This document shows positions 47,431 to 54,000 of a DNA stretch of 62,432 nt, in pieces. The stretch is from an uncultured Acidobacteriota bacterium. GTDB lineage: Bacteria; Acidobacteriota; Thermoanaerobaculia; UBA5066. Made by a program: the position numbers and the translations under genes. Position 1 is the first letter of the stretch, and each line of letters begins with the position of its first letter. Under the pieces are notes generated by a model. That model did not search any database, was not told the DNA's origin, and saw only the letters and a program-made list of their open reading frames with translations. The stretch is from contig CAIMWE010000044.1 of the NCBI GenBank assembly GCA_903845115.1, positions 1 through 62,432 of the forward strand. The letters run 5' to 3'.

Positions 47431-48492
47431 TCACTTCGGCCAGGCGGCGGGCCGGTCGGGAGGTGCGGGGGCCTTCATCTCGGCGGGCGGCGGAGCGGTC
47501 TTCTCGGGGGCCGTGTAGTACGCGGCCGCCTCGGCCGAGACCTCGATCGTGGCGTCCTGCTTCAACCGGCCGAGGTACTCGCCGAGCCTCTTCGGGAACC
47601 GGGCGTCCTGCTCCTTCCTGAGGATCTCCGCCCTGACCTCCGGGAAGGACCTGTCGGCCGCCGGCCGCCTGTCGAGGACCTTCACGATGTGCCAGCCGAA
47701 ACTCGTGCCGATCGGGGAGGAGACCGCTCCGACTGGAAGCGAGAAGACGACCTTCTCGATCCCGGGATTCAGCTCCCCCTTCGAGACGAACCCGAGGGCC
47801 CCGGCCCGGTCCCGGGTCCCGTCCGAGGAATGGAGCGGAACGAGCTCCTCGAAGGTCGCCCCGACTTCCAGCTTCTGCAGCACCTCCCGCGCCCTCGCCT
47901 CGCCGGCGCCGCCCTCGCCCCGGGGGATCAGGATTTCCGAGATCCGCACCTGCTCCGGGACCCTCCAGGTCTCCTTCTCCCTCTCGTACACGAGCCGCAG
48001 GACGTCGTCGCCGAGGTCGATCTTCGAGTAGACCTCGCGCCCGACGACCCGCTGGATCGTCAGCGAGTGGCGGAGCTGTTCGCGGAGCCCGTCCACCGTC
48101 AGGCCGTTCCCGGCCAGCGCCAGGGCGAACTCCTCGTCCGTCTTCACATGGTTCTGCTCCCTGAGCTTCCTGACGTGGACCTCCACCTCGACGTCGGTGG
48201 CCGCGAGGTCGAGCTCCCGGGCCCGGTCCTCGAGGAGGGTCTGGTTCACGAGCTCCTCCATCACCGTCCTCTTCACCTCGGCGGTCTGCTCTTCGGAGAG
48301 CGGCTTCCCGAGTTCCCGGACGGCCTGGAGGACCCGTTCGTCGAAGGCAGTCTGCGTGACGACGCGCGAGTTGACCCGGACGAGGATCCGGTCGATCACC
48401 TCGCCCCCCGGGGCCGGCGCCGCGGCGCCGAGGGCGGCGACGCCGACGGCGAGAGCGAGCGAAACGGACCGGGACCGGAGCGAGGGGATCAG
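47431..48492 (-). CDS. Secreted SurA/parvulin-type peptidyl-prolyl isomerase; probable CTG start
   Basis: The product is about 353 residues if started at CTG 48492. That start makes a CTGA overlap with the upstream paralogue and places a signal peptide (SVSLALAVGVAALGAAAPA) at the N-terminus, as in the paralogue. The only upstream alternative, GTG 48570, adds 26 unlikely residues. A SurA-like chaperone domain follows, then a parvulin domain with RISEILIPRGEG, GFVSKGEL and FGWHIVKVLDRRP. The mature part is roughly 70% identical by eye to the N-terminal portion of the preceding gene product but ends after a Pro-rich tail and has no barrel. It likely helps fold envelope proteins. Confidence 0.85.
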   Translation of the reverse strand: MIPSLRSRSVSLALAVGVAALGAAAPAPGGEVIDRILVRVNSRVVTQTAFDERVLQAVRELGKPLSEEQTAEVKRTVMEELVNQTLLEDRARELDLAATDVEVEVHVRKLREQNHVKTDEEFALALAGNGLTVDGLREQLRHSLTIQRVVGREVYSKIDLGDDVLRLVYEREKETWRVPEQVRISEILIPRGEGGAGEARAREVLQKLEVGATFEELVPLHSSDGTRDRAGALGFVSKGELNPGIEKVVFSLPVGAVSSPIGTSFGWHIVKVLDRRPAADRSFPEVRAEILRKEQDARFPKRLGEYLGRLKQDATIEVSAEAAAYYTAPEKTAPPPAEMKAPAPPDRPAAWPK

Positions 48493-50123
48493 AACCGGAA
48501 GGTCAGACCGAGGGAGAAGTCGGTCTGGTAGAGGTAGTTCCCGTTCCAGTAGGTGTAGCAGCCGTACCACGGGTCGCAGTAGGCGTAACCGCTGTTCGAC
48601 GAGGCGATGTAGATCGGCATGAAGCGGAGCCCGGCCTTCGCCCCGATGGCGTCGCTGATCCGGAACTTCGCCCCTCCGCCGATGCTCGCCGAGAAGCGGG
48701 TCAGCGCCGAGAACTCGGGGGACGGCGTGAGGACGGTGACGCCGAGCAGGAAGTCGAGATAGCCCCGGACCGGGGCGCCCGGCCGGCCCGACTGCCAGAG
48801 CCCGCCGATCTGGAACGTGTCGATGTTCAGGTGCGAGAGCTTGTCGGAGTAGCCGTCCGGCGGCGTCGTTACCCAGTTCACCGTCAGCTGCGAGTCCTGG
48901 TGGCTCCAGAGGAACTCGAGCGAGGCCACCGGGCCGATGACCAGCTCGGCGGTCAAGCCGAAGCTCAGGCTGTTGGGCACCTTCACGGAGTCGATGTAGG
49001 TCGTGCTGTAGGTGGACGACGTCCCGCCGAAGCGGTAGCCGACCAGCGGGGTGACCTCGAACCCGCGCTCCCGGGCGGGTTCGAAAGCCGGGTGCGCGAC
49101 CGGGGAACCGGAGGCGGTCGTGGTTTCGAAGGGGGGCGGCGCCATCCGGACCGGCGCCGTGTAGTAGGAGGAGGCCTCGTCCGAGACCTTGATCACGGCT
49201 TCCCGCTTCAGCTTGTCGAGGTACTCGGCGAGCTTCTTCGGGAACTGGGTGTCCTGCTCCTTCTTGAGGATCTCCGCCTTCACGTCCGCGAACGGCTTGT
49301 ACGCGACCGGACGCTTGTCGACCACCTTCACGATGTGCCAGCCGAACTTCGTGCCGATCGGGTCGGAGACCGCCCCGACCGGAAGCGAGAAGACGACCTT
49401 GTCGATCTCCGGGTTCAGCTCCCCCTTCGAGACGAACCCCAGGTCGCCGGCCCGGCTCCGGGTCGTGCCCGAGGAGTAGAGCGAGACCAGGTCCTCGAAC
49501 TTCGCCCCGGCCTTGAGCTTCTGCGTCGCCTCGAGCGCCTTCGCCTCTCCCGCGGCGCCTTCGCCCCGCGGGATCAGGATCTCCGAGATCCGGACCTGCT
49601 CCGGGATCCGCCAGGTTTCCTTCTCCCGCTCGTAGGCGAGCCGCAGGGCGTCGTCCCCGAGGTCGATCTTGGAGTGGACCTCTCGCCCGACGACCCGCTG
49701 GACCGAGAGCGAGTGGCGGAGCTGCTCGCGGAGCTTGTCCACCGTGAGCCCGGTCGCGGCCAGCGCCTTCACGAACTCCTCGTCCGTCGCGACCTGGTTC
49801 TGCTCCTTGAGCTTCTTGATGTAGTCCTCCACCTCCGCGTCGGTGGTCACGAGGTCGAGATCCCGGGCCCGGTCCTCGAGAAGCGATTCGTTGACGAGCT
49901 CCTCCATCACGGTCTTCTTCGTCTCGACGACCTGCTTGTCCGAGGGCGTCTTCCCGCTTTCCCGGATGTTCTGGAGGACACGCTGGTCGAAGGCGGTCTG
50001 CGTGATGACGCGCGAGTTGACCCGGACGAGGATCCGGTCGATCAGCTCGGCCGACACGAGACCCGGGCCGAGGACCAGAGCCACCACCAACGGGAGGAAC
50101 GGGCGGAAACGGGTACGCTTCAC
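48489..50123 (-). CDS. SurA/parvulin-type PPIase fused to predicted outer-membrane beta-barrel
   Basis: The 544-residue protein has a signal peptide (1-25), a SurA-like helical chaperone region (26-172), a parvulin domain (about 175-272, with ISEILIPRGEG and FGWHIVKVVDKRP), and a helical return (280-315). A Pro-rich linker leads to 190 residues (354-544) of alternating strands rich in Tyr, Gly and Phe. The end is FSLGLTFRF, the terminal-aromatic signature of outer-membrane barrels. Eight or so strands could form a small barrel. SurA proteins normally deliver barrels rather than carry one. The ATG is plain, and the gene lies 24 bases after the third PPIase gene. Confidence 0.83.
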   Translation of the reverse strand: MKRTRFRPFLPLVVALVLGPGLVSAELIDRILVRVNSRVITQTAFDQRVLQNIRESGKTPSDKQVVETKKTVMEELVNESLLEDRARDLDLVTTDAEVEDYIKKLKEQNQVATDEEFVKALAATGLTVDKLREQLRHSLSVQRVVGREVHSKIDLGDDALRLAYEREKETWRIPEQVRISEILIPRGEGAAGEAKALEATQKLKAGAKFEDLVSLYSSGTTRSRAGDLGFVSKGELNPEIDKVVFSLPVGAVSDPIGTKFGWHIVKVVDKRPVAYKPFADVKAEILKKEQDTQFPKKLAEYLDKLKREAVIKVSDEASSYYTAPVRMAPPPFETTTASGSPVAHPAFEPARERGFEVTPLVGYRFGGTSSTYSTTYIDSVKVPNSLSFGLTAELVIGPVASLEFLWSHQDSQLTVNWVTTPPDGYSDKLSHLNIDTFQIGGLWQSGRPGAPVRGYLDFLLGVTVLTPSPEFSALTRFSASIGGGAKFRISDAIGAKAGLRFMPIYIASSNSGYAYCDPWYGCYTYWNGNYLYQTDFSLGLTFRF

Positions 50124-50147: not shown

Positions 50148-51020
50148 TCAGCGCCTCCCCTCCGGCTTCGGAAACGCCCCCACGTAGGGGAACGGGAGGT
50201 GCTCCTCCAGCACCGAGACCGGGTGCTTCTCTCGCGCCTCGGTCAGGATCGCCTCGACCGCCGCGCTGCTCCTCTCCTCGCCGAGGGTGAGCCGGAGGGC
50301 CGGGGCTTCCTCCTCGAACGTCCCCTGCCTCGGCTCCCGGCGCTCCTCCACCCGGAAGATGTGGAACCCGTGCGGGGTCGAGAGGACCGGCGTGACGGCG
50401 CCGGCCGCGAGGCCCCAGACCGCCTTCTCGAACTTCGGGGGGAGGTCGGCCTGGGCCAGAAAGCCCAGCGACCCGCCCGTCGCCGAGTTCGGGGCGATGC
50501 TCAGGGCGCGGGAGACGTCGATCCAGGGCTGGCCCCGCTCCAGGCGCCGGCGCCCCTCCTCGGCCTGGTCCTTCGCCGGGAAGATGAGCTGGGAGACTCG
50601 GAGGAGGGGAGCTCCCTGGTCCTTCGCCCGCCGCGCCGCCCACTCCTTGCGAAGGAGCGCCTCGTCGATCTCCGAAAGCCGCGCCCGCCGGCCGATGAGA
50701 TCCCCCCGACGGTCCGCCGCCGTCGGGCCACCCGCCTTCGGCACCGCCTCCTCGACGGCGCGCTCGATCAGCTTCTCCTCGAGGAACTGGTCGAGAAGGC
50801 TGGAGGCGACTTTCGGGGAGACGCGCTTGGCGTCGTCCCCCGCCGCCTGCCGGATGTACGCGGCGGCCTCCGGCCACTCGACCGGCCGGTCCCCGACCAG
50901 GGCGACCACCGAGCCGCCCATCGCCGTCCCCGCCTTCCCTCGTCCGCACCCCCCGGCCGCCAGGAGGAGCGCGACCGCGGGGACGAGGAGCCCGGCCGCA
51001 CGGCGAGCGGGCCCGGTCAC
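50148..51020 (-). CDS. Peptidyl-prolyl isomerase lipoprotein (PrsA/SurA-like)
   Basis: The 290-residue product starts at GTG 51020 in a GTGA overlap with mfd. A hydrophobic signal ends in LLLAAGGC; Cys25 is the likely lipidation site, though the lipobox is imperfect. A SurA_N-like helical region (about 40-125, SSLLDQFLEEKLIERAVEEAV) leads to a parvulin domain (about 140-235) with RVSQLIFPAKDQAEEG, GGSLGFLAQADLP and TPHGFHIFRVEER. It resembles anchored folding factors that act at the periplasmic face. It is more divergent from the two following PPIases than they are from each other. Confidence 0.86.
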   Translation of the reverse strand: MTGPARRAAGLLVPAVALLLAAGGCGRGKAGTAMGGSVVALVGDRPVEWPEAAAYIRQAAGDDAKRVSPKVASSLLDQFLEEKLIERAVEEAVPKAGGPTAADRRGDLIGRRARLSEIDEALLRKEWAARRAKDQGAPLLRVSQLIFPAKDQAEEGRRRLERGQPWIDVSRALSIAPNSATGGSLGFLAQADLPPKFEKAVWGLAAGAVTPVLSTPHGFHIFRVEERREPRQGTFEEEAPALRLTLGEERSSAAVEAILTEAREKHPVSVLEEHLPFPYVGAFPKPEGRR

Positions 51021-54000
51021 GGAAGCGCTCCCGCCCTCGCGATCGACGCCAGGAACGCTTCGGCGCGCCCCGGAATCGACGCGAGGTCCTCGCGGGGGCT
51101 CTCGAAGGCCTTCGGGACCCGGAAGGAATCGGGCCCCGACGCGGACAGCTCCCCCTTGCGGAGGGCCGAGAGGATCTTCTCCGGGTCGATGCGGTGCTCC
51201 TTCTCGAGGGTCGCCGCCAGCTCGTCCCCGCGCCGGTGGAGCGCCTTCACTCCGAGCCGTTGCGCGGCGAGCCGGAGGCGCGCGACGGCCAGGAGACGCG
51301 CGAACTCGGGAGGAGCCTGGCCGTACCGGTCCTCTGCCTCGCGCGCCACCCGCACGAGCGCGTCCGCGTCGGAGGCGCCGGCGACCTTCTTGTAGAGGGC
51401 CATCCGGAGGTTCTCCTCCCCGATCCACGCCGGCGGCAGGCCCAGGGGGATCCCGAGCTGGATCGTCACCTCGCGCGTCTCGGGAATCGGCTCCCCCTTC
51501 ATCTCCGCGATCGCCTCCTCGAGAAGCTGGACGTAGGTCTCGTACCCCACGGCGCCGATCTCCCCCGACTGCTCGCCGCCGAGGAGGTTCCCCGCTCCCC
51601 GGATCTCCAGGTCCTTGGCCGCGATCCGGAACCCGGCGCCGAGGTCCGAGAACTCCTGGATCGCCTTCAGCCGGCGCCGCGCCTCGTCCGTCAGCGGCAT
51701 CCCCGGCGGGACCAGCAGCCAGCACGACGCCGGCTTGTCGCTCCGGCCCACCCTTCCCCGGAGCTGATAGAGCTGCGAGAGGCCGTAGAGGTCGGCCCGG
51801 TCGATCAGCATCGTGTTCGCGGACGGGATGTCGAGGCCGTTCTCGACGATCGTGGTGGCGAGGAGGAGGTCGGCCGCCCGCGTCGTGAAGGCGCGCATCG
51901 CCCGCTCCAGCTCCATCTCCCCCATCTGGCCGTGGCCGGCGACGACCCGGACGTCCGGGACCAGCTCCGCCAGCTTTTCCCGCCACGCCCCGAGCGACTC
52001 GACGCGGTTGTGGACGAAGTAGACCTGCCCCCCCCGGTCGATCTCCGCGCGGATCGCCTCGCGGATCACGTCGTCGCTCGTCGCCACGACGTGCGTCGCG
52101 ATCGCGAGCCGGTCCTTCGGGGGGGTCTCGATCACGGAGAGGTCCCGGATCCCGGCCAGGGAGAGGTTCAGCGTCCGGGGAATGGGCGTCGCCGACATCG
52201 CGAGGACGTCCACCGCGGCCCGCCACTCCTTGATCCGCTCCTTCTGGGCGACCCCGAACCGCTGCTCCTCGTCGATCACGAGGAGGCCGAGGTCCCGGAA
52301 CTTCACGTCCTTGGAGAGGAGCCGGTGGGTGGCGATGACGACGTCGAGGGTCCCCTCGGCCAGCCGGCGGGCCACCTCCTTCCGCTCCTCCGGCCCCCGG
52401 AAGCGCGAGAGCAGGTCGATCGTCACGGGGAACGCCGCGAAGCGCCGCTTCAGGGTGCGGAAGTGCTGGTCGGCCAGGATCGTCGTCGGGCAGAGGAGAG
52501 CCGCCTGCTTGCCGTCCAGGACGCTCTTGAAGATCGCCCGCATCGCGACCTCGGTCTTCCCGTATCCGACGTCGCCGCACAGGAGCCGGTCCATCGGCCG
52601 TTCCGACTCCATGTCCCGCTTGACGTCGCGAATCGCGGCGACCTGGTCCGGCGTCTCGGTGAACTCGAACGCCTCCTCGAACTCCTTCTGCCACGGCGAG
52701 TCCTTCGAGAAGGCGTGGCCCTCCGCGGTCGCGCGCTTGGCGTACAGCTTCAGGAGCTGGTCGGCGATGTCCTTCACCGCCTTCCGGACGGAGGCCTTCC
52801 GCTTCGCCCACCCGGCGCCGCCGAGGCGGTCCAGGGGCGGGGTAGAGGTGTCGCCCGCGCTCGCGTACTTCTGGATCAGGTCGAGGCCCTCGACCGGGAC
52901 GAGGAGCTTGGCGTCGTCCGCGTACCGGAGGTCGACCATCTCCCGGATCGCCTCCCCGTCCGGGATCTGCGCCAGGCCGGCGAAGCGGCCGAGGCCGTAG
53001 TCGCGGTGGACCACGATGTCGCCCGCCTTCAGGTCGCGGAGGTCCGAGAGGAACGCCTCCGAGGCCGCCTTCCGGCGCGGCGGCGGGACCCGCGGCTCCC
53101 CGAACACGTCGGCCGCCGTCAGGACGTAGAGGCCGGCCCCCCTCCAGAGGAAACCGTGCTCCGTCCCCCCGTCCACGAGGCGGCAGGCCCCCGGGGCGAG
53201 CGGCGAGCGGGACTCCGCGGCGACGTGGTCGATCTCGTATTCGGCGAGAAGCCGCTCGAAGTGCTCCCGCTCTCCCTTCCGGGCCGCCGTCAGGACGACC
53301 GCGAGCCCCTCCTTCCGGCTCCGCGTCAGCTCCTTGGGAAAGGCCGGGAGCTGGTCCTCGAACGAAGGGGCGCTCTCGGCCCCCACCGCGAGCGTGTCGC
53401 CTCCCGGCACGGCGGGATAGAGAGCGAGGACCGTCCGGCGGCCGAGCTCCCCCTCGAGGCGGTCCGGGTCGCCCGCGAGCCGGATCGGGTCCGGGACGAC
53501 CCGTCCCGCCCTCCGGACCTTCTCGTAGTCGAGCCGCAGGACGTCCGCCGCGCGGACCAGCTCTTCCCTCACGGCGTCCAGGTCGTCCACCGCCAGGACG
53601 AAGGCTCCCGCGTGGTCGAGGACCGACGACGCCGGCCCGCCCCCGGCGAGGAGCGGGAGGAGCTCCTCCAGCCCGTCGTTCTTCCGGGGGGCGGACGGGT
53701 CCCGAGGCACCGGCGGGTCGTCGTCCGGCGTCCGGCAGGAATCCAGGACCCTCCGGGCCTGCTCGCGGGTCGCCGCCGTATCGGCCGTCGTGGCCATCGG
53801 CGGAACGAGGACCTCCGTCCGCTCGCCTGTCGACCGCTGCGTGTCGGGGTCGAAAGTCCGGATCGACTCCACCGTGTCGAAATCGAACTCGACCCGGATC
53901 GGCTCCGGGAAGTTGGGCGGGAAGAGGTCGAGGAGACCGCCACGCACGGCGATGTCCCCGCACTCCGTGACGAGATCGGTCCGCGAGTACCCCTCGTCGA

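Follow-up and report, generated by a model that had tools for sequence, protein, structure and literature searches.

In the window, a stretch of 62,432 nucleotides, a single gene encodes a SurA-like chaperone that continues, in the same reading frame, into a predicted eight-stranded outer-membrane beta-barrel (Table 1). SurA escorts unfolded outer-membrane barrels to BAM and is itself normally free and soluble. We consider it fairly probable that the barrel of the fused protein keeps its SurA part at the outer membrane, on the periplasmic side, where it would chaperone clients to BAM, and this is the most economical and best-supported of the readings considered. A limited literature search found no natural SurA with an outer-membrane barrel of its own; as far as that search shows, this would be the first case of a transmembrane barrel anchoring SurA in the outer membrane.

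Table 1. Coordinates of the fused gene, its parts and the neighbouring genes in the window.
Feature	Residues	Positions	Strand	Basis and remarks
surA-barrel fused gene	1-544	48489..50123, stop codon included	-	544 aa, GTG start; full-length homologues in G004, G006, G008, G013
Signal peptide, ...LVSA|E	1-25	50049..50123	-	by inspection; low pLDDT in model
SurA N-terminal domain	28-144	49692..50042	-	Pfam SurA_N_3 8.9e-16, SurA_N 2.6e-10
Single parvulin domain	173-271	49311..49607	-	Pfam Rotamase_3 3.8e-19
C-terminal helix of SurA core	278-308	49200..49292	-	predicted structure; SurA/PrsA alignment through residue ~316
Pro/Ala/Thr-rich linker	319-351	49071..49169	-	composition; pLDDT <50 at 327-351
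Eight-stranded outer-membrane beta-barrel (predicted)	352-544	48492..49070	-	structure model, structural matches, topology
Second surA copy without barrel, Pro-rich tail		47431..48495	-	about 354 aa; shares 70-73% identity with the SurA half of the fused protein; start codon uncertain
Upstream PPIase, same gene row		50148..51023	-	lipobox-like LLLAAGGC; start approximate

The sequence-only reading had described one 544-residue reading frame with a signal peptide and SurA-like and parvulin parts, and ORF calls, Pfam searches and inspection confirmed it. The protein begins with the signal peptide, followed by a SurA-type N-domain, a single parvulin domain, a C-terminal helix, the linker and a beta domain of 193 residues. 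A sequencing frameshift, named in that reading as a possible refutation, was excluded, because four other genomes of one Acidobacteriota family that includes the window genome (G004, G006, G008 and G013), each of a different genus, have this fusion in frame at the corresponding locus and because codon constraint was found in both halves; a misassembly joining two genes was ruled out by the same four genomes. Their proteins share 57-65% identity with the window protein, in the SurA part as well as in the barrel part. Codon position 2 was the least variable in the SurA part (0.188 vs 0.360 at position 3) as well as in the barrel part (0.212 vs 0.325), a pattern that indicates protein-level constraint on the two alike, and GC3 was 0.92-1.0 in both parts and 0.85-1.0 in the linker. 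Searches of 100 relatives and of 396 genomes from the phylum gave no full-length match outside the family. Long SurA reading frames from other parts of the phylum were also considered as barrel fusions; the 10 loci read showed short or Lys/Ala/Pro-rich low-complexity tails and no barrel. In SurA proteins of some other Acidobacteriota (L097-L100), a Lys/Ala/Pro-rich low-complexity tail of roughly 250-290 residues occupies the place of the barrel.

Pfam matches in the SurA part were all above their cut-offs: SurA_N_3 spanned residues 19-144 with 58.6 bits (cut-off 27.2), SurA_N gave 40.9 bits (cut-off 30.8) and Rotamase_3 gave 69.8 bits (cut-off 22.5). E. coli SurA was the first PDB match of a profile of the five fused proteins (5.7e-26) and was matched by the predicted full-length model in Foldseek with an E-value of 3e-15. 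The best structural E-values went to BAM-bound SurA and to a SurA fragment lacking the second parvulin domain, and the shorter SurA-like proteins HP0175 and PEB4/Cj1289 were among the structural matches. E. coli SurA (PDB 1m5y, 2pv3, 8pz1, 9hg5) has the same succession of N-domain, parvulin domain and C-terminal helix, but it carries two parvulin domains, whereas Pfam and the predicted structure revealed one here and no second; the window protein also differs in two changed active-site positions and in its C-terminal membrane barrel. The NCBIfam SurA equivalog NF008038 was not reached by the fused protein (69.2 bits vs a cut-off of 394), so the safe name is "SurA-like with one parvulin domain" and not the proteobacterial equivalog.

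The parvulin active site was assessed against the canonical criterion of His59, Cys113 or Asp, and His157 of Pin1, which are the reference positions for parvulins (PMC6468809). In the window protein, Glu181 occupies the His59 site and Gly219 the Cys113 site, while the third residue, His263, is kept. With two positions altered, the reading as an active isomerase was rejected and isomerase activity of this domain is doubtful; the earlier suggestion that the protein places isomerase activity next to incoming clients was thus not sustained, and the fused protein probably acts by chaperoning rather than by isomerising prolines. Glu was found at the first position in 14/14 SurA copies examined in the family, fused or not, and Gly at the Cys113 position in 12 of the 14. 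The same Glu occurs in SurA of other Acidobacteriota classes and is therefore no peculiarity of the fusion. In the window genome, the PpiD-like protein (L004:586-2709, + strand) carries a membrane helix at its N-terminus and has the parvulin residues in their canonical form (HARHIL, ESDD, GFH). Canonical residues kept in the PpiD-like protein and lost from the SurA proteins are the reverse of the situation in E. coli, where PpiD and one SurA parvulin domain are inactive (PMC6468809).

Structure prediction of the C-terminus, which the sequence-only reading had proposed as a check on its claim that some 190 Tyr/Gly-rich residues ending in FRF form a barrel, gave a membrane barrel. Modelled with seven sequences, residues 352-544 formed eight long strands (mean pLDDT 82.7, pTM 0.78). 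The leading matches among solved structures were membrane barrels (NspA, the OmpA transmembrane domain, OmpW, OprF and OprG; Z 17-20), and a soluble beta-sandwich was accordingly not supported. By VIA-align, NspA scored Z 19.1, OmpW 18.6 and the OmpA transmembrane domain 17.9; these three share the predicted eight-stranded fold at Z about 18-19, but they are only 11-15% identical to the window barrel and have no chaperone fused to them. Pfam OMP_b-brl stayed under its cut-off of 28.7 over the beta domain (18.2 bits; E 0.003 with the domain alone, 0.018 with the whole protein), and the family is therefore a fold-level relative only. Hydrophobic/polar alternation was clear in six of the eight strands and weak in strands 3 and 4, and alternate residues of the last strand averaged 2.99 and -2.23; the protein ends in GLTFRF. 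Across nine aligned barrel sequences, Phe was always the last residue and the last outer loop had two invariant Cys.

The loops measured 19, 4, 17, 7, 8, 4 and 26 residues in order, so that long and short alternate, with would-be outward loops of 8-26 residues vs periplasmic turns of 4-7. Since the strand number is even, both termini would lie on one side, and the loop/turn pattern fits ends in the periplasm; the model thus supports a topology with SurA on the periplasmic side. Export of the SurA part in the manner of an autotransporter was judged unlikely, the predicted barrel being narrow and eight-stranded. The whole-protein model reached a pTM of 0.40, as expected if the SurA and barrel halves are not fixed to each other. 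The idea of a chaperone tethered by its own barrel therefore gained from the predicted membrane barrel and from a topology with SurA in the periplasm, and lost its isomerase role.

The Pro-rich linker of the sequence-only reading was recovered from the sequence and from low pLDDT. It is rich in Pro, Ala, Ser and Thr, mostly predicted disordered, and 33 residues long in the window protein (33-43 across the five fused proteins), with no conservation of sequence. We propose that the protein would be exported by Sec and its barrel then inserted by BAM via the C-terminal beta-signal, and that the flexible linker of 33-43 residues would keep the SurA core at the periplasmic face of the outer membrane. 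There the core would bind unfolded outer-membrane proteins and pass them to BAM, with the barrel acting as an anchor that may raise the local chaperone concentration at the membrane. BamA-type Omp85 proteins and Skp were present in 6/6 genomes tested. A disordered, unconserved linker would also be an easy target for a protease, and after export the protein might be cut there, releasing SurA in soluble form from the barrel, so that the fusion would merely make both from one gene; free forms of both halves do occur elsewhere. The linkers of the five fused proteins show no conserved cleavage motif, however, and their length stays within the range of 33-43 residues; we regard such processing as improbable.

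Artificial fusions in E. coli provide the closest comparison for an anchored SurA: SurA-OmpX and SurA-EspP (PDB 8qpv, 8qp5) both engage BAM, the former, without a linker, being caught on BAM with its folding not completed and the latter, with a linker of 76 residues, having a fully folded EspP barrel (PMC11366764). They share with the window protein a single chain in which an outer-membrane barrel comes after SurA, but they were man-made to trap BAM intermediates, and the 33-43 residues of the natural linkers fall between theirs (none or 76 residues). The natural linker is about half as long as that of SurA-EspP, and full insertion with SurA still on BAM is therefore not assured.

The gene order is mfd, PPIase and surA, with rnd and mraZ on the far side, and is kept in much of the family where contigs reach. 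At that locus, surA without a barrel was found in G001, which belongs to the same genus as the window genome, and in G002, G003, G005, G009, G010, G011 and G012. The barrel is thus an optional add-on within the family, and since close relatives have this gene without it, SurA function as such does not depend on it. Two nearly complete genomes, G004 (96% complete) and G008 (99%), had just two SurA_N_3 proteins each, the fused one and one of PpiD size; with no other SurA there, the fused form must do the SurA work in these two species. We tentatively extend this to the proposal, which we rate a little below an even chance, that a naturally evolved, outer-membrane-anchored SurA serves as a general chaperone resident at BAM and replaces soluble SurA in some species.

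The distribution also bears on the converse arrangement, in which the barrel is the working part, OmpW/OmpA-like, and the attached SurA mainly escorts that one client to BAM. Engineered SurA-OMP fusions do take the attached barrel to BAM (PMC11366764), and free-standing barrel relatives with their own signal peptides in the same genomes indicate that the barrel family also has an independent role. These OMP_b-brl-like relatives (L003, L048, L049) are 42-56% identical to the fused barrels and share the loop Cys, but they differ in having no SurA part and cope without an attached chaperone. The fused gene moreover lies at the surA locus and is the sole SurA in G004 and G008, and it is the barrel that is absent in relatives while the SurA part is kept. 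We therefore consider a SurA devoted to its own barrel unlikely. An Omp85 protein lies about 1 kb from the free-standing barrel of G003, on the same contig and strand.

In the barrel tree, the fused barrels formed one clade (99/95) nested in the family of free-standing outer-membrane barrels, and the SurA tree followed genera, with barrel presence needing five state changes. Because of the single clade and the genus-wise SurA tree, it is most likely that the barrel joined once and was lost several times. In several barrel-less copies the Pro-rich tail is retained and includes YYT(A/P)P or something close to it, as though the linker had been left over. The barrel tree conflicted with the mfd tree (AU p 0.003 and 0.023), placing the fused barrels off the species tree, and this conflict possibly reflects barrel exchange or a tree artefact on 193 columns.

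The window genome is alone among the genomes read in having a tandem barrel-less surA, directly downstream of the fused gene. No ATG, GTG or TTG lies close to its signal peptide; the candidate starts are a CTG that overlaps the fused gene's stop (CTGA) and a GTG at 48570 within the fused gene. The free SurA from this adjoining gene may act beside the tethered one. L040, the single surA of G001, resembles the fused copy over its first 320 or so residues and has a short tail like that of the tandem copy, which suggests a hybrid in which recombination between tandem copies removed the barrel. Such a removal, together with the patchy presence of the barrel and the five state changes, is what would be expected if the barrel gene had joined surA once and were now being lost with little effect. 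The barrel is nevertheless constrained in frame, with codon position 2 least variable, and has been kept in five genera, which makes a near-neutral fusion very improbable.

The way in which SurA reaches BAM and remains there is under active study, and the artificial fusions had to be made to catch the intermediates (PMC11366764). An anchored SurA would be a natural counterpart of these laboratory BAM-trapping fusions, supplying an evolved linker length and geometry, and its barrel, if the proposal is true, would keep the chaperone at the assembly site as a standing partner. A ready comparison is offered by relatives that have or lack the barrel at one and the same locus. Membrane tethers are known for other parvulin chaperones: PrsA, the Gram-positive lipoprotein foldase, is membrane-tethered. 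PpiD is anchored in the inner membrane (PMC2956729). Both resemble the window protein in being parvulin chaperones tethered to a membrane, but their tether is a lipid or an N-terminal helix and leads to the cytoplasmic membrane. With the lipobox-like motif of the upstream PPIase, the gene row of the window may encode two differently membrane-tethered parvulin proteins and one free one.
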